Part shown: in pieces, positions 6,889-28,481 of the stretch
Layout of the letters: each line of letters begins with the position of its first letter
Numbering within the stretch: position 1 is the stretch's first letter
Source of the DNA: Synergistota bacterium
GTDB taxonomy: Bacteria; Synergistota; Synergistia; Synergistales; Aminobacteriaceae
DNA length: 45,166 nt
Direction: 5' to 3'
NCBI GenBank assembly: GCA_022704435.1
Contig: JAKJGK010000005.1
Span: 1 to 45,166 of the forward strand
Made by a program: the position numbers and the translations under genes
Notes under the pieces: model-generated
Told to the model about the DNA's origin: nothing
What the model saw: only the letters and a program-made list of their open reading frames with translations
Database searches by the model: none

Positions 6889-9174
6889 CTAAGGCCTCCC
6901 CGACGAATGTCTGCGCGGACCTCCCCCTCCGGGGCGCCTGTCTCCCCTGTCGCGCCCGGCTCCGCCCTCCCTGGGCCTGTCGCGCTCCGGCTGCGGGTTG
7001 TTTCTGCCGGCCTCGGCGAGCGCCTCGATCATGCTCTCGCGCTCCCTCTCGGCGGGAAGCACGTCGGAGAGCCCCTCGGCCGCTATGCGGCTCTCGTCGT
7101 CAAGGATGCGCCTCCTGGTGAGGTTTACCCGCCCCATGTCGTCGATCTCCTTGACCATCACGAGGACCTTGTCCCCTACCTTGAACACGTCCTCGACCTT
7201 TGGTATGCGTCTAGTGCTGACCTCGCTCACGTGCAGCAGCCCCTCCTTGCCGGGAAGGCACTCCACGAAGGCCCCGAAGGTCATCAGCCGGGTGACTGTG
7301 CCGTGGTAGACTTCGCCGGCCTCAAGGTCCTTCGTGAGACCGCGGATTATCGAAAGGGCCTCGTTGACCTTCTCCTGCGTCGGCCCGCCTATGTAGATCT
7401 CGCCGCTGTCCTCCACGTTGATCTTCACCCCTGTCTTCTGGGTGATGCCGCGGATTACCTTTCCGCCGGGACCGATCACGTCGCGTATCTTCTCCGGGTC
7501 GATGGTCGTCATGAATATCCGGGGGGCGTTGGGCGACAGCTCGGCCGGCGCGGGGATGGCGGCCTCCATGGCGTCGAGGATCTGCATCCTGGCGGACCTG
7601 GCCTGAGACAGAGCCTGCTCGAGTATCTCCCTGGTTATCCCCCCCGCCTTGTTGTCCATCTGCAGGGCGGTGACTCCGTCGCGGGTGCCGGCGACCTTGA
7701 AGTCCATGTCGCCGAAGTGGTCCTCCAGCCCCTGGATGTCGGTGAGGACCGCCACCCTGTCATCCTCCTTGATCAACCCCATCGCGATCCCGGCCACGTG
7801 CTTCTTCATCGGCACTCCGGCCTCCATCAGGGCCAGGCTGCCTCCGCAGATCGAGGCCTGGGAGCTTGAGCCGTTGGACTCCAGTATGTCGGAGACCACC
7901 CTCATGACGTAAGGGAAGTCCTCCTCCTCGGGGATCATGGCGCGCAGGGCGCGCTCCGCCAGCGCCCCGTGGCCGATCTCTCGCCTGCCGGGGCCCCTCA
8001 TCGGGCGAACCTCGCCGACCGAGAAGGGGGGGAAGTTGTAGTGAAGGATGAACCTCTTGGCCGGCTCGTCCTGCTTGAGTCCGTCCAGGATCTGGTCGTC
8101 GACCCCCATCATGCCGAGCGTCGTCACGACCAGGGCCTGGGTCTCGCCTCTCGTGAACAGGGCCGATCCGTGCACCCTGGGCAGGACGCCCGTCTCGCAG
8201 GTGATCTTCCTTAACTCGTCCATGCGGCGCCCGTCCGCGCGGATCCTCTCGTCGACTATCAGCGAGCGCATGATCCTCTTGACCATCCCGTCTATCACGC
8301 CGGACATGTAGTCCCCGGCGTCGGGATGCTCCTCCTCGAATCGCTCCACAAGCCTGTTCCTGGCGGCGGAGATGGCGTCGCCGCGCGGCTTCTTCTCGTG
8401 TATCATCACCGCCTCGCGGATCTCGGCCGAGAGGTTTTCCTCGGCCCACGAGTCTATGGCCTGGTAGGACGGGGGGGCGGGCAGCTCCAGCTTGGGACGC
8501 CCCACCGACTCACTCATCTCGTTGAACAGGCCGACGATCTTCCTGATCTCCGCCTGGGCGAGCTCGAGGGCGTCCACCAGCAGCTCCTCGGAGATCTCCT
8601 TCGACCCGCACTCGACCATGGTGACCCCGTCGAGGTGCCCTGCGACAAGAAGGTCCAGGGTTGACACGGCCATCTGCTCCTCGGTCGGGTTGACCACGAA
8701 CTCGTCCTCGACCCTGCCTATCCTGACAGCGCCCACGGGTCCGCCCCACGGTATGTCGGAGATGCTGAGCGCGGCGGAGGCGGCGTTGATGGCCAGCACG
8801 TTGGGCGGGTTGACCTGGTCCACCGAGAGCACGGTCGAGACCACGTGCACGTCGTAGCGCATGGACTCGTCGAACAGCGACCTTATCGAGCGGTCAACCA
8901 TCCTGCAACTCAGCACCGCCGTCTCGGATGGGCGTCCCTCGCGTTTGATGAATCCGCCGGGGATCTTGCCGGCGGAGTAGAATCTCTCCTCGAAATCCAC
9001 GAGCAGCGGAAAGAAATCGATCCCCGTGCGCGGTTTCTCCGTTATGCAGGCCGTCGTCAACACGGTCGTCTCTCCATGCGCCGCCACAACGGCCCCGTTC
9101 GCCTGCTTCGCCACCTTGCCGGTGGAGAATTGCAGGGGCCGTCCCCCGATTTCGACAGAAAACGTCTTCTCCAT
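6889..9174 (-). CDS. pnp: Polyribonucleotide nucleotidyltransferase (PNPase)
   Basis: Phosphorolytic 3'-5' exoribonuclease of mRNA decay. 761 residues from the ATG at 9174, which follows a GGAGGAAGG site; upstream in-frame codons lack a ribosome binding site. Order: first RNase PH-like domain (about 1-210), helical linker, second RNase PH-like domain with MRGPGRREIGHGALAERAL, KH domain (GPGGKVIRGITQKTG, about 565-600) and S1 domain (GTVTRLMTFGAFVECLPGKEGLLHVSEVS), then a glycine/arginine-rich tail. It follows rpsO, the usual arrangement in bacteria, with an intervening terminator. Confidence 0.97.
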   Translation of the reverse strand: MEKTFSVEIGGRPLQFSTGKVAKQANGAVVAAHGETTVLTTACITEKPRTGIDFFPLLVDFEERFYSAGKIPGGFIKREGRPSETAVLSCRMVDRSIRSLFDESMRYDVHVVSTVLSVDQVNPPNVLAINAASAALSISDIPWGGPVGAVRIGRVEDEFVVNPTEEQMAVSTLDLLVAGHLDGVTMVECGSKEISEELLVDALELAQAEIRKIVGLFNEMSESVGRPKLELPAPPSYQAIDSWAEENLSAEIREAVMIHEKKPRGDAISAARNRLVERFEEEHPDAGDYMSGVIDGMVKRIMRSLIVDERIRADGRRMDELRKITCETGVLPRVHGSALFTRGETQALVVTTLGMMGVDDQILDGLKQDEPAKRFILHYNFPPFSVGEVRPMRGPGRREIGHGALAERALRAMIPEEEDFPYVMRVVSDILESNGSSSQASICGGSLALMEAGVPMKKHVAGIAMGLIKEDDRVAVLTDIQGLEDHFGDMDFKVAGTRDGVTALQMDNKAGGITREILEQALSQARSARMQILDAMEAAIPAPAELSPNAPRIFMTTIDPEKIRDVIGPGGKVIRGITQKTGVKINVEDSGEIYIGGPTQEKVNEALSIIRGLTKDLEAGEVYHGTVTRLMTFGAFVECLPGKEGLLHVSEVSTRRIPKVEDVFKVGDKVLVMVKEIDDMGRVNLTRRRILDDESRIAAEGLSDVLPAERERESMIEALAEAGRNNPQPERDRPREGGAGRDRGDRRPGGGGPRRHSSGRP

Positions 9175-21214: not shown

Positions 21215-22567
21215 CTAAACCTCCTTTGCAGATGAATCGCCGCCGGGCGTCGATTCCACGGTATCATCGCGGACGACTAGCGTGAAACCGTCCATCTCGG
21301 ACACAAGGACCTCCGCCCCCTTGTAGAAACGCGCCCCTCCGACTCCCTTCGCCCTCCAGATCTCGCCGTGGCACCTGACCATCCCCTCGGGGTCGAGATC
21401 CTCCACCACAACGGCCTTCCTTCCCGTCATCCCCTCCGCGCCGGAGACCGGCCTCCTGGCGTGCGAACGGAGGACGAGATACAGGGCCCCGATGAAGAAG
21501 AGCCCGAAGGCCAGGCTCATGCCGCCTATCACGTTCATGGACACGTTCAACAGCTCCCCTCCGGGCGCCCTGAAGAGAATGAGCCCGCCCGTGACCAGGG
21601 ATGCCAGGCCGAACAGGCTGAGCACCCCTATGCCTCCGACCACCAGGTCGAGGACGAGAACCACTATGCCCGCCACCAGAAGAACGACCCCGGCCCAGTT
21701 GAACGGGAGCATTCTCAGGCCGAAGGCCCCCAGCAGCACCATGACCGCCCCGGACGTCCCGAGCACGAATCCTCCCGGAGTCAGGACCTCCAGCACGATC
21801 ATCAGTATGCCGGCGGACAGCAGCATGTACGCTGTATCCGGGCTCGAGATGAACTGAAGGACCCTCTCGCGCGAGGACATATTTATCTCCACTATGACCG
21901 ACGGGTTGAAGAAAAGCTCCCTCTCCTCGCCTCCGACCAAGACCCTCCTGCCGAGGATGCCCGTCAGCAGCGAATCCATATCGGGCGCCGACAGGTCCAC
22001 CAGCCCTCCCGCGAGGGCCTCCTCCGAGGTAAGCGAGACGCTCTCGGTGACCATGCGCTCGGCGAGGTCGGGGTTGCGCCTCCTGAGCTGGGCGAGCGAC
22101 CTCATGTGAGCAGCCAGGTCGTTGGTTATCTTTCTTTTCATGTCCCTGTCCGGCGCATCCTGGCCGGAGGCCATGACCGGCTGCGCGGCGCCGACGTTGG
22201 TGCCGGGGGCCATGGCCGCCACGTGCGCGGCCTGCAGTAAGAAGGCCCCCGCCGAGGCCGCCCTGGCCCCCTGGGGAGAGACCCACACGACCACGGGCAC
22301 CGAAGAGTCCATGATGGCGGCCGTCATGGCCCTCATCGAACTGACCAGGCCGCCCGGGGTGTCCATGCGGAATACCACCAAGCCGGCTCCCTCATCCGAC
22401 GCGCGGGACAGGACTTCCTCGGTGAATACCTCCATGGAGACCCCTACAGTCCCCTCCAGCCTGGCGGCCATGACTACTCCGCCGTCCGCCTCGCACGCCG
22501 GCGCGGCTGGCAGGGCAAGCGACAGCGCGAGGAGAATGACTGCGCATATTTTACCAAATCTTGTCAT
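21215..22567 (-). CDS. NfeD family membrane-bound serine protease (ClpP-class)
   Basis: 450 residues, long form. Signal peptide 1-25, then a ClpP/S49-like protease domain with [13 protein letters not shown], Ser105 in [11 protein letters not shown] and a candidate catalytic Lys146 in [13 protein letters not shown]; this Ser-Lys dyad matches the known archaeal stomatin-cleaving homologue. Four to five membrane segments follow (about 235-365), then the C-terminal NfeD OB-fold domain ([21 protein letters not shown] region). The neighbouring slipin is its expected partner and possible substrate. The ATG overlaps the radA stop by four bases. Confidence 0.92.
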
Positions 22568-23898
22568 ATCATCACCGCCTTAAGGGCGTCCTTCAGGGTC
22601 GAGACCCCTGTCACAGCGAGCGGCGCGGCGCCGCGCAAGGCCCTCTCGCGGGAGCTGACGACGGCCCGCTTGAACCCCAACCTCGCCGCCTCCTGCAAAC
22701 GTCGCTCGAGCCTCACCACCGGGCGCACCTCGCCGGCCAGGCCCACCTCGCCCAGTAGAATGCAGTCCGCCGGGACAGGGGCGTCGCGCACCGCCGATGC
22801 CAGCGCCGCGCAGAGGGCCAGGTCCGCGGCCGGCTCCCTCAGGAGAAGCCCGCCCGCAACGTTCACGTACATGTCGAACAGGGAGCATCCGACGCCGCAT
22901 CTCTTCTCGAGCACCGCGGAGAGGAGCTGAATCTTGTTCACGTCCACTCCCCTGCCGGTGCGCTTCGGGTAGGGGAAGGCAGTCGCCGCGGCGAGCGACT
23001 GGATCTCCGCGATCAACGGGAGGCTGCCCTCGACCGCGACCGTCATGGCTACCCCCGGCACGGTCTCGGAGGCCCTGTTCCAGTACAATCCGCTGACATC
23101 CCGCACTGGGGACAGCCCCGAGTCCGTCATCTCGAAGACGCCGAGCTCCTCGGTGCTGCCGTAACGGTTCTTGCCGGCGCGGAGCATCCTGTAGGGGGAG
23201 TAGTCCTCGCCGGAGAAGGTGAGGACCGCGTCAACCATGTGCTCGAGGAGCATGGGGCCCGCGATCCTCCCTTCCTTGGTTATGTGCCCCACGAGGACCG
23301 CCGGGATTCCCCTCTCCTTGGCCGAGGAGATGCACGCCTGGGCCACGGCCCTGACCTGGGCCGGGCTGCCCGGCCAACCACCCTCGCCGTCCACGCTCAT
23401 GGCCTGAACGCTGTCCACCACCAGGAATCTCATCCCGGGCAGGGCCTCGAGCGCGGAGACTATATCGCCGGTGCACGCAAGGTGCAGCCCGTCGAGACGA
23501 GTCCCGAGGCGCTTGGCCCTGAGCGCGATCTGCGACTCGGACTCCTCCCCGGACAGGTAGAGCACCGGTCCGACTATCTCAGCCATCATGCCGCACGTCT
23601 GCAACAGGAGGGTCGACTTGCCGATTCCCGGCTGCCCGCCCAGCAGGTAGACGCCCCCCGGAACGAAGCCTCCGCCAAGCACTCGGTCGAAGTCGTCGAA
23701 CCCGGAGGAGACCCGCGAGGGGGGCAGAGCCTCGGATGCCACGATGCATCGCGCGACCTGACGGTTCGCCTCCGCGCCGGGCGTAGCGCCCTTCTCCATC
23801 GTGCCCCACTCCCCGCACGACGGGCATCTCCCCGCCCAGGAGGCGGAGGATGCGCCACAGACGGAGCAGAAGTACCTGGCTGCCGCCAGCTTAGCCAT
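22564..23898 (-). CDS. radA: DNA repair protein RadA (Sms)
   Basis: 444-residue RecA-related ATPase that promotes branch migration in recombination. N-terminal zinc finger (CSVCG at 11-15, CPSCG at 25-29), Walker A GQPGIGKST at 88-96, the RadA-specific KNRYGSTEELGVFEM motif, and a C-terminal Lon-like domain (GVDVNKIQLLSAVLEKRCG onwards). Length is typical. Its end overlaps nfeD; upstream it is separated from the PHP gene by 54 bases, so it may be transcribed with the cluster before it. Confidence 0.96.
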   Translation of the reverse strand: MAKLAAARYFCSVCGASSASWAGRCPSCGEWGTMEKGATPGAEANRQVARCIVASEALPPSRVSSGFDDFDRVLGGGFVPGGVYLLGGQPGIGKSTLLLQTCGMMAEIVGPVLYLSGEESESQIALRAKRLGTRLDGLHLACTGDIVSALEALPGMRFLVVDSVQAMSVDGEGGWPGSPAQVRAVAQACISSAKERGIPAVLVGHITKEGRIAGPMLLEHMVDAVLTFSGEDYSPYRMLRAGKNRYGSTEELGVFEMTDSGLSPVRDVSGLYWNRASETVPGVAMTVAVEGSLPLIAEIQSLAAATAFPYPKRTGRGVDVNKIQLLSAVLEKRCGVGCSLFDMYVNVAGGLLLREPAADLALCAALASAVRDAPVPADCILLGEVGLAGEVRPVVRLERRLQEAARLGFKRAVVSSRERALRGAAPLAVTGVSTLKDALKAVMI

Positions 23899-23952: not shown

Positions 23953-24714
23953 TCAGGGCGACCAGGTCCAGGGGTTGAGGACGCTCCTGCCCTCCATCCC
24001 CCCCAGCGCCATCCTCACCTCGCCGAAGGACGGGGCGGCCAGGCGCATCACCGTGCAGCGGTCCCTCGAGATCTCGGACAGCCTGTGGGCATCGGACGAG
24101 CGGACGAACACTCGGTCCGGGTATCGCTCCCTCCATTCCGCGAACGCAGAGTGCGACACGGCGGGCGACAGCTCGAGGGCGTGGCACGGGAAGTCGTCGG
24201 GCACCCTCCCGAGCACCGACTCGTAGGAGAAGGACGGCCTGTCAAGGTGCGCCGGTATCACGACGGCCCCCATGCGGCAGGCCTCCGAGGCCACCTCGTC
24301 CACCGAGTAGCCGACCCCCTGAACGAGCAGGGTATCGCGCTCGCTCATTATATTGTTTTCATGGTCGATGACGAGCTGGTAGCCGAAGATCGACGGGTCA
24401 TTCTCCCGGTCGGGCAATGAGAGCCAAAGCCACCTCCTGTACTCGACCGCGCTCTCGTCGTCGGGGAAGATCACCACCACGTGGATGTCCTCGGCCGTCT
24501 GGATCTCCATGCCGGTCAGCACCGCCGGGTCGCCCTCCGCGGCCTCGCGGATCGCCGGTGCGTTGGCTATATCGTTGTGATCGGTCACAGCGCAAAGAGA
24601 GACGCCGGCGCCCCGGTAGGCTGAGACTATCTCCGGGGCCCCCATCTCGAGCTCCGCGCACGGCGACAGGACGGTGTGAAGGTGAAGGTCGACCCAGTAG
24701 GAGGAGAGGTTCAT
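23953..24714 (-). CDS. PHP-domain phosphoesterase
   Basis: 253-residue protein with the PHP metal-binding signature: DLHLHTVLSPC (motif 1, residues 9-19), TDHND (motif 2), a central IPAHLDRPS and a C-terminal SDAHRLSEI. The family hydrolyses phosphoesters using a trinuclear metal site; the substrate cannot be read from sequence. It has no polymerase domain. Its ATG overlaps the stop of the small DRTGG-type gene by four bases, tying it to the hydrogenase-like cluster. A longer open frame continues upstream inside other genes and is not coding. Confidence 0.85.
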   Translation of the reverse strand: MNLSSYWVDLHLHTVLSPCAELEMGAPEIVSAYRGAGVSLCAVTDHNDIANAPAIREAAEGDPAVLTGMEIQTAEDIHVVVIFPDDESAVEYRRWLWLSLPDRENDPSIFGYQLVIDHENNIMSERDTLLVQGVGYSVDEVASEACRMGAVVIPAHLDRPSFSYESVLGRVPDDFPCHALELSPAVSHSAFAEWRERYPDRVFVRSSDAHRLSEISRDRCTVMRLAAPSFGEVRMALGGMEGRSVLNPWTWSP

Positions 24715-25052
24715 GAGGAGATCGGAAAACCGGCCTCCCTGAGGGCCCCTGCGGCGTCGAAGGCCGACATGGGAGTGGTCGCCAGGGTGATGCCCTCGAC
24801 GGAGCATCTGTCGACAAGCGTCCTGTCCGGCATTCGCCCGGAGGCCGCCAGGATGAACGGGACCTCCTTCAGCACCGCCACGGCTGCGGCGTTCACGTGG
24901 GTCTGGATCGTTATCCAGAGCCACCCCTCGCGAGCTTCGGCCATTATGAAGCTGAGCAGGTCCCCCGAAATGGCCCCGCCAAGCTCTCGGTCCATGTCCC
25001 CCTCCACCAGTACGCTGGCGCCGGTGACCCTTACCGCCTCGCCAATCTTCAT
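24711..25052 (-). CDS. Small DRTGG-type protein, second of two
   Basis: 113 residues beginning MKIGEAVRVTGASVLVEG. The body (GGAISGDLLSFIMAEAREG, HVNAAAVAVLKEVPFILA, GITLATTPMSAF) resembles the DRTGG fold, a small ligand-binding domain often found in regulatory proteins and beside hydrogenase genes. The ATG overlaps the stop of the hydrogenase-like gene by one base (TGATG) and its own stop overlaps the PHP start. The product looks like a free-standing paralogue of the 121-residue protein at the other end of the cluster. Ligand and partner are unknown. Confidence 0.7.
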   Translation of the reverse strand: MKIGEAVRVTGASVLVEGDMDRELGGAISGDLLSFIMAEAREGWLWITIQTHVNAAAVAVLKEVPFILAASGRMPDRTLVDRCSVEGITLATTPMSAFDAAGALREAGFPISS

Positions 25053-26368
25053 CAGGATCTCCTCCGTTTCCTGCCGGTGTGAAGCGTGTGCGGCAGCTTG
25101 GACGAGAGGCACTGGATCTCCTCGCTGAGCTGGGTTATCCTCTCCCTCATCTTGAACACGCAGTCGGAGACATCCCCCTGCCCCCTCACGATGTCCTCCG
25201 CGAGGGCCCTGCACGAGGGACGGCCGCAGGCGCCGCAGTCTATGTGCGGCAGGTCGGCGTAGATCGCGTCCATCTCCCGCAGCTTGGCCATGGCCTCCTT
25301 GATGTCCTTGGACAGGGGAAGGCGCTCGCGCGGGACTACCGGGGCCGCCAGCTCCCACACGCCCCTGTCGTGCCAGTGGCGTATCCTCTCCATCTCCTCG
25401 CTGGACGGCATCCACTCCGCGTCGATGTTGTTGAGCCTCAGCTGCGACAGGAAGCGGGACTCGTAGGTCCCGGTGCCGCCGAAGCAGCCCAGGTCGCACG
25501 CGCGGCACTCGATGAAGTCCACTCCCGAGAGGCGCCCGAGTTCCAGCTCGTTGAGAAGATCCTGGGTGTTCCTCAGCCCCGACACGGAGATGGAGGTGAA
25601 GCCCTTGTCGAAGAAGGAGGCGATGTGGCGCGCCTCGCCCCCCGAGGTGGACCACAGCAGCCACCTGCCGCTGACGGGCCTGGTCTTGGCCCCGGTGACC
25701 TTGACGTTGCAGGCGAGCATGTCGCGGATAACCGTCCTGACGCTTACGACGTACTCGAGCGAGCTTCGTTTCCTGCCGACAGGGTTTCGGACCAGGGTGG
25801 CCTTGGCGGGGCAGGGAGAGACCAGGGTAACGTTCTCCTTCGCCCCCGTCTCCTCCCGCCAGATGGTCACGGCGGTCTCGAGCGGCGACTCCACGGGCAG
25901 TATGCGCCCGACCAGCTCCGGGTAGTTCATCTGGATCAGGCGTATCACTGCGGGACAGTAGGTGGAGATGTAGGGCAGATTCTCCCCGCCCTCCCTGATG
26001 ATCTTGGCCGACGCGAAGGCGGAGAGGTCGAACGCGAGGGAGGCCCACTCGGAGAGGTCGTTGTACCCGTGGCTCTCCAGCGCCTCCATCATGAGACGAG
26101 GGCGCGAGTAGGCGCCCACCTGGACGTAGAAGGCCGGGTCCGCCATAAGGACGAGCCCCTCCCTGGTCTTGATGAGGTCCCACTCGTCGTCGTTGACTGT
26201 GATCGCCCTGTCCTTGCAGCTCCTTATGCACTCGCCGCAGTCTATGCACAGGTCTGGCAGAAGCCTGACCACGCCGTCGATCACGCGCAAAGCCTCGGTC
26301 GGACACGACCTGATGCAGTTGGCGCAACCGCGGCAACGGGATTCGGTGATCTTTATCCCTCCGGACAT
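25052..26368 (-). CDS. [FeFe]-hydrogenase-like iron-sulfur protein, probable sensory type
   Basis: 438 residues. Two N-terminal 4Fe-4S sites (Cys12/15/18/22 and Cys41/44/47/51) precede an [FeFe]-hydrogenase large-subunit domain. H-cluster motifs are degenerate: L1 is STYCPAV instead of TSCCPxW (Cys138 kept, the proton-relay cysteine is Tyr137), L2 is VSPCPAK (Cys186), L3 is ECRACDLGCFGG (Cys291, Cys295). A further Fe-S motif CGACGRPSC...C (Cys378/381/386/403) lies near the C-terminus, then a possible coiled coil. All four H-cluster ligands are thus present but the relay is lost, as in sensory HydS-like enzymes. It lacks a PAS domain. Neighbours are GHKL and DRTGG genes. Confidence 0.83.
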   Translation of the reverse strand: MSGGIKITESRCRGCANCIRSCPTEALRVIDGVVRLLPDLCIDCGECIRSCKDRAITVNDDEWDLIKTREGLVLMADPAFYVQVGAYSRPRLMMEALESHGYNDLSEWASLAFDLSAFASAKIIREGGENLPYISTYCPAVIRLIQMNYPELVGRILPVESPLETAVTIWREETGAKENVTLVSPCPAKATLVRNPVGRKRSSLEYVVSVRTVIRDMLACNVKVTGAKTRPVSGRWLLWSTSGGEARHIASFFDKGFTSISVSGLRNTQDLLNELELGRLSGVDFIECRACDLGCFGGTGTYESRFLSQLRLNNIDAEWMPSSEEMERIRHWHDRGVWELAAPVVPRERLPLSKDIKEAMAKLREMDAIYADLPHIDCGACGRPSCRALAEDIVRGQGDVSDCVFKMRERITQLSEEIQCLSSKLPHTLHTGRKRRRS

Positions 26369-26386
26369 GAAAACACGCTCCTTTGC

Positions 26387-26821
26387 TTAGCCCTGCTTGA
26401 AGGCCACGGTCGCCCTGAGCCTGGTGCCCCTCCCTACCTCCGTGTCTATCTCCATGGCATCGGCGTTTCTCTGGATATTTGGCAGCCCCATCCCGGCCCC
26501 GAACCCGAGTTCCCTGATCTCGTCGGTGGCGGTGGAGTACCCCTCCTGCATGGCGAGCTGGACGTCGGGGATGCCCGGCCCCGAGTCCGAGGCCTCTATC
26601 ACCAGGTGATCGTCGTGCACGGTCATCCGAAGCATTCCGCCGCCCCCGTGAATGAGCGCGTTCATCTCGGACTCGTAGGCGATGACCGATGCCCTGCGGA
26701 CCAGGTCGGAGGCTATTCCTAGCATCTTCAGGGTCGCCTTGAACTTGGTGGACGCCTCTCCTATCGCCGAAAAATCACCGGCCTGGATGGCGTACTCCTC
26801 CACATACGGCTCCTGCCCCAC
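26387..26821 (-). CDS. GHKL ATPase, RsbW-like anti-sigma/serine kinase family
   Basis: 144-residue single-domain ATPase. N box ESEMNALIHG, G1 box DSGPGIPD and G2 box GFGAGMGLPN are all present, with no dimerisation/histidine domain, which is the RsbW/SpoIIAB layout rather than a two-component kinase. Such proteins phosphorylate or sequester a partner. The GTG start is 3 bases after the stop of the upstream DRTGG gene, and the hydrogenase-like gene starts 18 bases downstream, so the three are one unit. No sigma factor or anti-anti-sigma gene is in the window. Confidence 0.85.
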   Translation of the reverse strand: MGQEPYVEEYAIQAGDFSAIGEASTKFKATLKMLGIASDLVRRASVIAYESEMNALIHGGGGMLRMTVHDDHLVIEASDSGPGIPDVQLAMQEGYSTATDEIRELGFGAGMGLPNIQRNADAMEIDTEVGRGTRLRATVAFKQG

Positions 26822-26824
26822 GGG

Positions 26825-27190
26825 TCACACCCCTCTGTCCGGAATATGACAGGGAAGGATGCCCTTCTGAAAGAGGATGCCGCACGTCTCGAACATGCTC
26901 ATCTGGCATACGAGGATCGGCATCTTGATCTGCGAGGCCAGTTTGACGGCGGCCTCCTGCGGTTTCTTCCCGCGGATGAAGACCACCGACGGCAGGTCGA
27001 GCATCTGGGCCGTGCGGACTATCTGGATGTTCGTGAGCCCGGTGAGCAGCAGCGACCCGGGCCTGGCGAACGCGAGGACGTCGCTCATCAGGTCGGCGCC
27101 GTAGGCACACTCGATGTCTATCGAGTCGAGCAGATCCTCCCCGCACAGCACCTCCGCCCGAATAAGGGTAACGAGATCGCGAAGTATCAT
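26825..27190 (-). CDS. Small DRTGG-domain protein, first of two
   Basis: 121 residues with the DRTGG-type fold pattern: VLCGEDLLDSIDIECAYGAD, LMSDVLAFARPGSLLLTGL, VVFIRGKKPQEAAVKLA and KMPILVCQMSMFETCGIL. This domain occurs in regulatory proteins and as stand-alone proteins next to hydrogenase clusters in anaerobes. Leading gene of the hydrogenase-like cluster; GAGGAGG site before the ATG. The 49-base gap to the upstream binding-protein gene shows no convincing promoter, so it may be read through from there. Confidence 0.75.
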   Translation of the reverse strand: MILRDLVTLIRAEVLCGEDLLDSIDIECAYGADLMSDVLAFARPGSLLLTGLTNIQIVRTAQMLDLPSVVFIRGKKPQEAAVKLASQIKMPILVCQMSMFETCGILFQKGILPCHIPDRGV

Positions 27191-27239: not shown

Positions 27240-28481
27240 TCAACGAAGGTTCTCGGGACCCCTGACCGTCAGGGTGTTGACCGGGTGGAAGCTCTTCTCC
27301 GCCACTTTCATGAAGGATACTCGCCTCTCGACGGGCCTGTGGGTGAGCGGGTTGACCGAGAGCGCCTGCGAGCCGAAAGCCAGCCCCCGGGCCAGAGGCA
27401 TGAATGCGGCGAGGTCGGAGGGCGCCGGGGAGCCTGAACGCCCGAAGGCGTCGAACAGCCACTTGCACGCGACGTATGCCCGCCCCGCGACGGCCGCGTC
27501 CTTCACGATCAGGTTCAATCGCCTGCGTATCTCCCGAAGGAGCGGGGCGAGAGAAGCATCGGTCCTCACAGGGTAGTCCTGGTCGGCCGCGACGACCCCG
27601 TCGAAGGAGAGCAGAAGGGGCTGAGGCGCGCCGCCGTACCAGATCTCGAACCCGCCGGTCTTCAGGCGGGTCGCCCTCCAGACGTCGCGCACGACCATCG
27701 AGCCGGCCCAAGTGATCAGTACTTTCGCGCCCGAGGACACCATCTCGGACTCCATCAGCCTGAAGGAGTCCATCGCCCCTCCGGGGATCCAGAAATACTC
27801 CGAGTCGAACCCCTTCTCGGACAGCATCTCCCCCAGGTTGCGCGACCGGCACTCGAGCGCCGGGTCGAGCCTGTCGGCCATCAGGGCCACGACAGATCCG
27901 GCCGGGAGGACGGCGGAGGCGTAGTCGGCGAAGGCCTGGACCCGGAAGTCGCTGTACAGGTCCAGGGCGAATACCATCGGGTCTGGAGCTCCATCTGCGT
28001 CCAGGATGTTCTCATGCTCTCCGTAGGCCGACAGCAGTACAGGTCCTTTCCCGGCCAGCAGAGGCCTGAGGATCGGGATGTCGTCGCCGCCGGACATGGA
28101 CAGGACGGCGGAGACTCCCTTTTTTCGCCAGTCCGCGACCCGGGAGGCGGCGGACTCCCCGTCCAGGGGCGGCTCCTGCAGGAACCTGATGTCGCGCCCT
28201 CTTATCCCGTCCGCGCTGTCCATTACCTCCCACTCGGCGAGGCGGATCGCCGCGATGGCAGACCTGCCCTGCTCGCTGTCCCACCCCTCGTCGGGCGGGA
28301 GGACCGCCACCTGCCAGACCCACCCGTCCTGCAGTCCCACCTCGAAGCCGTCCACGACGGCGCGCGCGGCGGTGGCGGCAAGAAGGAGCGAAAGGACCGC
28401 GACGAGGACGAACGCCTTCAGCGCCGTCGCACGTCCGCCGCCGCCAGCACCCCTTCCCCGCACGTAGCTCGCTGCCTTCAC
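27240..28481 (-). CDS. Orphan periplasmic ligand-binding protein, LivK-like fold
   Basis: 413 residues. An arginine/glycine-rich N-terminus leads into a hydrophobic signal segment (about 20-40) ending TAARA. The rest shows a type I periplasmic-binding fold: early [20 protein letters not shown], then [20 protein letters not shown] and [14 protein letters not shown], resembling amino-acid receptor proteins. No permease or ATPase gene adjoins it. The GTG start overlaps the adenosine-kinase-family stop by four bases, so the two are co-translated. A transporter subunit encoded elsewhere, or a sensor, are both possible; ligand unknown. Confidence 0.65.

Follow-up and report, generated by a model that had tools for sequence, protein, structure and literature searches.

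The closest described relatives of the genes considered here are the group D (M2e) [FeFe]-hydrogenase-like proteins, of which TamHydS of Thermoanaerobacter mathranii has been studied (PMC8163306, PMC10407848, PMC13104023). H2 sensing has been proposed for group D in the literature, and group D genes have already been reported upstream of bifurcating hydrogenases, with a kinase close by (PMC3561251); the group D gene of Clostridium thermocellum is Cthe_0335 (PMC3561251). In the literature we found no mention of DRTGG or PHP proteins beside group D [FeFe] hydrogenases. Here we analyse such a locus from a Synergistota bacterium (Aminobacteriaceae; assembly GCA_022704435.1). The window, that is the whole stretch of DNA analysed, comprises 45,166 nucleotides of contig JAKJGK010000005.1; on its minus strand, at positions 23953–27190, lie five tightly packed genes coding, in order, for a DRTGG protein (D1), a GHKL-type ATPase (GHKL), a hydrogenase-like iron-sulfur (Fe-S) protein (HYD), a second DRTGG protein (D2) and a PHP-family phosphoesterase (PHP). 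Our preferred reading, to which we give roughly an even chance, is that this is a conserved switch cassette whose HYD would report ferredoxin/NAD redox state, not H2, and which would control NADH/ferredoxin complexes.

Comparison with described systems

TamHydS and the window HYD share the same domain layout, the equivalents of E252 and E289, Ser at the CpI M353 position, and a locus type beside a HATPase gene. They differ at the position of CpI C299, where TamHydS has Ala and the window HYD has Tyr, and the window genome lacks HydE, HydF, HydG and a catalytic [FeFe] hydrogenase. An AraC-family regulator was named beside TamHydS by Land et al. (PMC8163306). Since the adjoining gene in a Thermoanaerobacterium relative encodes a DRTGG protein with no helix-turn-helix, this label may reflect a mis-annotated DRTGG gene.

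The group C proteins (PAS-linked; C3 with a SpoIIE phosphatase) form the sister clade and have the C-terminal Fe-S motif in common with HYD; they have a SpoIIAB/SpoIIE partner-switch partner and also occur in maturase-less genomes. Unlike HYD, they carry a fused PAS domain, and no DRTGG or PHP genes accompany them. GHKL matches SpoIIAB/RsbW over the ATPase domain, including the N, G1 and G2 boxes, but the window cassette has neither a STAS antagonist nor a sigma factor, and GHKL scores far below the cutoff of the curated SpoIIAB model (45.5 bits; cutoff 135). The DRTGG fold of the cassette proteins is also that of the CBS-DRTGG pyrophosphatase region (3l2b) and of the DRTGG protein AF1212 (2ioj). 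As in 3l2b, CBS and DRTGG domains also meet in the HYD-less cassettes described below, but in the cassettes the DRTGG proteins come as stand-alone pairs, with CBS joined to the ATPase instead. PHP shares its fold and metal ligands with EndoQ, RNase AM and 2yb1, but the window protein falls under the family cutoffs, and no characterised protein is near to it.

The hydrogenase-like protein

Pfam analysis of HYD revealed a Fe_hyd_lg_C domain (4.7e-21), two N-terminal ferredoxin clusters (Fer4) and a C-terminal FeS domain (PF04060). The features listed in a preliminary description of the window (four H-cluster cysteines, Tyr in place of the relay Cys, STYCPAV and an extra C-terminal Fe-S motif) are all visible in the protein: C138, C186, C291 and C295 supply the H-domain cysteines, Tyr137 in the L1 motif (ISTYCPAV) occupies the CpI C299 position, and the C-terminal motif C378-x2-C-x4-C-x16-C403 equals that published for group D (PMC8163306). 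With a 2x[4Fe-4S] N-terminus, a four-Cys H-domain, the C-terminal Cx2Cx4Cx16C and no PAS domain, HYD has the group D layout. It carries the group D residues as well, namely Tyr137 for C299, Ser184 for M353, and Glu245 and Glu287 for E252 and E289 of TamHydS. In a tree built with references from groups A, B and C that were chosen in this analysis, HYD falls inside a single group D clade (support 100/99), sister to group C, and the Synergistota proteins form one branch within that clade. TamHydS is represented in this tree by its relative in Thermoanaerobacterium, in which the TamHydS residues C20, A137, E252, D265 and E289 are found with an offset of one residue. HYD is a group D (M2e) [FeFe]-hydrogenase-like protein; its identification as a catalytic hydrogenase is rejected by the tree placement, in agreement with the earlier claim.

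All 16 Fe-S cysteines of HYD are invariant in an alignment of 170 sequences, one of them truncated, whether or not the genome has maturases. In the alignment, the C299 position is Tyr in 86/86 Synergistota and Ala in 77 of the 84 others. Tyr137 was considered as a marker of maturase loss and rejected, since Tyr is equally invariant in Synergistota having HydEFG.

H-cluster maturases and the active-site lysine

Model searches of the window genome (G000) found no HydE, HydF or HydG, the Thermotoga maritima controls scoring above cutoff, and no Fe_hyd_lg_C protein other than HYD. The three maturases were likewise not found in four sister species. Altogether, 41 of 92 HYD-bearing Synergistota genomes lack all three. 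Some genomes are drafts, and the absence rests on 27 good genomes, not on one: among the 60 HYD-bearing genomes that are at least 90% complete, 27 have none of the three, 24 have all, eight have HydE and HydF, and one has HydF and HydG. The 27 include the near-complete single-contig genomes G030 and G032. Outside Synergistota, HYD is present with neither HydF nor HydG in G233 and G245; clostridial genomes without HydF (17/50), whose completeness is unknown, were not used as evidence.

All five cassette genes are under purifying selection, with ratios of nonsynonymous to synonymous substitution rates (dN/dS) of 0.04–0.20 over the gene set and of 0.05–0.09 for HYD against the sister species. Decay of the cassette after HydEFG loss is rejected on the strength of these ratios and of the invariant cysteines. 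HYD is thus kept, [4Fe-4S] sites included, in maturase-less genomes that offer no known route to the [2Fe] subsite.

All 84 non-Synergistota HYD proteins have Lys at the position equivalent to CpI K358, a residue that contacts the diiron subsite. Among Synergistota, Lys is found there in 45 of the 47 HYD proteins from genomes having a maturase, whereas 18 of the 39 from maturase-less genomes have Arg, Met or Val. These losses correspond to three changes on the tree, two of them in maturase-less clades, and taken alone, with only three independent pairs, the loss of Lys from HYD makes a weak statistical test. In the PAS-linked group C paralogues the same position is Lys where a maturase is encoded (16/16 genomes) and Arg or Ser where none is (6/6), a comparison that spans two maturase-less clades, one including the genus of the window. 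Group C is an independent family and gives the same sign as the HYD lysine. The group C proteins persisting without HydE/F/G are at loci L197 and L217–L221 (G025, G026, G028, G040, G043, G121).

Several Synergistota genomes have HydE and HydF but no HydG over the model cutoff (G107, G108, G110, G115–G118, G123, G125, G138, G139, G169). Most of these carry a strong [FeFe] hydrogenase, and HydG-free maturation or a divergent HydG is possible.

Conservation of gene order

Comparison of gene order across Synergistota and other phyla confirmed the conserved neighbourhood that had been claimed. The five genes are intact, in order and on the same strand, at 45 of 46 Synergistota loci and at 72 of 76 non-Synergistota loci with flanks. 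These frequencies are not a census: out of at least 510 candidates, the pattern-based scan of named genomes covered the best 80. A script gave 42 and 70 intact loci, to which three and two were added where frames were over-long (stop to stop) and all five genes were visible. Across Synergistota genomes D1 was found in 97, HYD in 92 and both in 90. A chance cluster is rejected by conservation of the order over several phyla, and a Synergistota-specific version by the identical five genes in Clostridia, Syntrophorhabdia and other families. The PHP linkage and the paired DRTGG proteins, which the preliminary description had singled out as marks of a special version, prove to be near-universal features of the group D locus.

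Outside Synergistota the cassette usually continues downstream with NuoE, a second HATPase, a 2Fe-2S (TRX) protein, NuoF and HydA; NuoF and HydA were found downstream in 31 of the 50 non-Synergistota loci having at least 8 kb of downstream sequence. At other loci HydA is swapped for RnfD/E/A (L078), for NfnA and a NuoG-like protein (L079), for an upstream NfnAB (L077), or for NuoG/FdhA-like or NfnB-like proteins (L041–L047, L158), and complex I is also among the variable partners of NuoE-HATPase-TRX-NuoF. The constant redox neighbour of the cassette, where it has any, is an NADH-type complex and not a hydrogenase. The window genome, its subunits named by eye from sequence, encodes NuoF in company with NfnB-like and, separately, with FdhA-like subunits; it also has RnfC and a [NiFe] complex that resembles group 4 and includes Mrp-type subunits. 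HydA was not found in this genome.

Cassettes without HYD

Genomes lacking HYD were located by a D1 profile search (D1 present, HYD absent). Two loci from family f11 of Synergistota (L237 in G002 and L238 in G003) have the order D1, a CBS-GHKL fusion, D2 and PHP, and an identical order recurs at L255, L257 and L258, in three genomes that belong to other groups. NuoE and/or second-HATPase genes come next in 4/5 of these CBS-GHKL cassettes. Locus L256 has D1-GHKL-D2-PHP without CBS, adjoining complex I-type Nuo genes, and L259 has D2-PHP close to NuoE/NuoF. At HYD-bearing loci only one GHKL frame out of 133, that of L078, carries a CBS pair; among the six HYD-less cassettes that have GHKL, five do. 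This concentration of the CBS-GHKL fusion in HYD-less cassettes suggests that HYD and CBS feed the same core, one in place of the other. Adenine nucleotides are common ligands of CBS domains. The core itself looks like D1, a SpoIIAB-type ATPase, D2 and PHP, with HYD as its input here.

Locus L078 (G233, 7835–8707) has both HYD and the CBS-GHKL fusion, followed by NuoF and rnfD/E/A. Remnant cassettes, with D1-GHKL only or a solitary D1, lie beside radA or the usual upstream neighbour at L242 (G167), L240 (G158) and L241 (G161), which suggests stepwise loss.

Partner proteins

The RsbW-like ATPase, the two paralogous DRTGG proteins and the PHP protein of the preliminary description were all recovered. 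D1 passes the Pfam DRTGG cutoff, 21/21 of its orthologues match this family, and its invariant residues are D33, S36 (in D-L-M-S), T50, K75 and P77. The Pfam search gave no match for the window D2 itself; 17 of 20 D2 orthologues match DRTGG, and its AlphaFold2 (AF2) model (mean pLDDT 97.3) resembles the DRTGG structure 2ioj (TM 0.82). D31, L33, S34, W46, T48 and N54 are invariant in D2, and either DRTGG profile retrieves the other. GHKL has intact ATP-binding boxes, with an invariant N-box (E50-x3-N54), D79-x-G-x-G-I and GFGAGMGL, and the solved structures closest to it are those of the anti-sigma F factor SpoIIAB. PHP carries the complete HxH/DH/E/H/H/DxH metal-ligand set; its Pfam PHP match is partial, and it is closest to PHP proteins of the EndoQ/RNase AM type.

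Proposed function

The preliminary description had suggested a redox or H2 sensor. Its redox part is retained here; the H2 part is given up for this genome, because HydE/F/G are missing and the four core genes survive elsewhere without HYD. In the window organism HYD would carry [4Fe-4S] clusters only, with no [2Fe] subsite. By analogy with its relatives, its N-terminal clusters would exchange electrons with ferredoxin, so that HYD would report how reduced the low-potential ferredoxin/NAD pool is. The C-terminal cluster of TamHydS showed no H2 response (PMC13104023), which supports a redox reading of HYD. An altered Fe-S state would then change GHKL, which, like SpoIIAB, may bind or phosphorylate a DRTGG partner, since D1 and D2 are the only small potential partners in the operon. 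The candidate phosphosite is the invariant serine of D-L-x-S, shared by D1 and D2. These proteins may also bind a putative nucleotide-type ligand, and PHP is predicted to reset the signal by removing the phosphate or the nucleotide ligand. As its output, the cassette would regulate the transcription or the activity of electron-bifurcating NADH/ferredoxin complexes of the NuoEF type. More broadly, we tentatively propose, at somewhat less than an even chance, a widespread undescribed system of DRTGG protein, SpoIIAB-like kinase, DRTGG protein and PHP that controls NADH/ferredoxin bifurcating complexes. Its inputs would be interchangeable: either HYD, reading ferredoxin redox state and in many bacteria deprived of an H-cluster or never equipped with one, or a CBS pair reading adenine nucleotides.

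Several observations weigh against the redox reading. Lys189 is retained in the window HYD, and the third change of this residue on the HYD tree falls in G142, a genome with both HydE and HydG. The clostridial locus usually adjoins catalytic HydABC, and most clostridial genomes have HydF; in the window genome the cassette is not adjacent to a NuoEF complex. Pfam and locus annotation place no STAS antagonist, sigma factor or DNA-binding protein among the cassette genes, and artificially matured TamHydS produces and oxidises H2 (PMC8163306). That TamHydS binds the H-cluster and reacts with H2 (PMC8163306), together with the adjoining HydABC in many Clostridia and the conserved Lys189, Glu245 and Glu287 of the window protein, argues for a true H2 sensor, in which HYD with an H-cluster would signal H2 via GHKL/DRTGG to hydrogenase genes, as the literature reads TamHydS. 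We consider this quite unlikely: HydE/F/G are missing from the window genome and from 26 other good HYD-bearing genomes, there is no [FeFe] hydrogenase in the window genome to control, all Synergistota have Tyr at the C299 position, and the core occurs without HYD.

The input may instead depend on the lineage, being H2 in Clostridia with HydEFG, Fe-S redox state where maturases are missing, and adenine nucleotides where CBS replaces HYD. This minority possibility would fit the K358-equivalent Lys being kept in every HYD outside Synergistota and lost only inside, its loss from group C in all six maturase-less genomes, and the CBS replacement in HYD-less cassettes, but some maturase-less lineages keep Lys, including the window's genus and G245/G233. 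It is highly improbable that the five genes serve NuoEF-type complexes as an enzyme or as an assembly module, with HYD passing electrons or aiding cluster or flavin insertion and GHKL and PHP acting as catalytic helpers. Such a module would agree with how often NuoE/HATPase/TRX/NuoF genes, with varying terminal subunits, are linked to the cassette, and the relatives of PHP are enzymes, but a SpoIIAB-type GHKL and CBS/DRTGG domains are typical of regulators, and the cassette stands alone in many Synergistota, the window genome included.

Layout of the locus

The packing reported earlier (five genes with gaps of at most 18 bases) was borne out. D1 and GHKL are separated by 3 bp and GHKL and HYD by 18 bp, HYD and D2 overlap by 1 bp, and D2 and PHP by 4 bp. 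Coordinates are given in Table 1.

Table 1. Genes and HYD motifs of the cassette, in window positions
Feature	Position	Strand	Details
D1, DRTGG-domain protein	26825-27190	-	121 aa, ATG start; Pfam DRTGG, E 1.5e-5
GHKL, stand-alone SpoIIAB/RsbW-like ATPase	26387-26821	-	144 aa, GTG start; Pfam HATPase
HYD, group D (M2e) [FeFe]-hydrogenase-like Fe-S protein	25052-26368	-	438 aa, ATG start; Pfam and tree
D2, second DRTGG-fold protein	24711-25052	-	113 aa, ATG start; orthologue profile matches and AF2 model
PHP-family phosphoesterase (predicted)	23953-24714	-	253 aa, ATG start; fold and metal ligands
HYD N-terminal 2x[4Fe-4S] domain	26216-26335	-	C12, 15, 18, 22, 41, 44, 47, 51
HYD L1 motif, residues 133-141	25946-25972	-	Tyr137 at CpI C299 position; Cys138 cluster ligand
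HYD L2 motif, residues 183-190	25799-25822	-	Ser184 (CpI M353), Cys186, Lys189 (CpI K358)
HYD L3 motif IECRACDLGCFGGT	25472-25513	-	Cys291, Cys295, Glu287 (TamHydS E289)
HYD C-terminal [4Fe-4S] motif Cx2Cx4Cx16C	25160-25237	-	Spacing equals published group C/D motif (PMC8163306); invariant

Just upstream of D1 (27243–28397, minus strand) lies a gene for an exported-looking Peripla_BP_6-like protein, which is present at 26 Synergistota loci and at no other loci and is possibly a lineage-specific addition to the operon. The radA gene (22564–23898, minus strand) follows or lies near PHP in several Synergistota, including L048, L049, L052 and L054, and its proximity is probably mere neighbourhood inheritance.

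Significance

Identifying the interaction partners of group D sensory hydrogenases has been called critical (PMC13104023). The present analysis names four candidate partners conserved over several phyla (D1, GHKL, D2 and PHP), identifies a set of genomes in which H-cluster-based H2 sensing is unlikely, and offers natural controls in the form of the HYD-less and maturase-less cassettes. If the proposed function is true, genome surveys that infer H2 sensing from the presence of group C/D genes would overestimate how common it is, and the idea of a general redox/energy switch acting on NADH-ferredoxin complexes would become testable.

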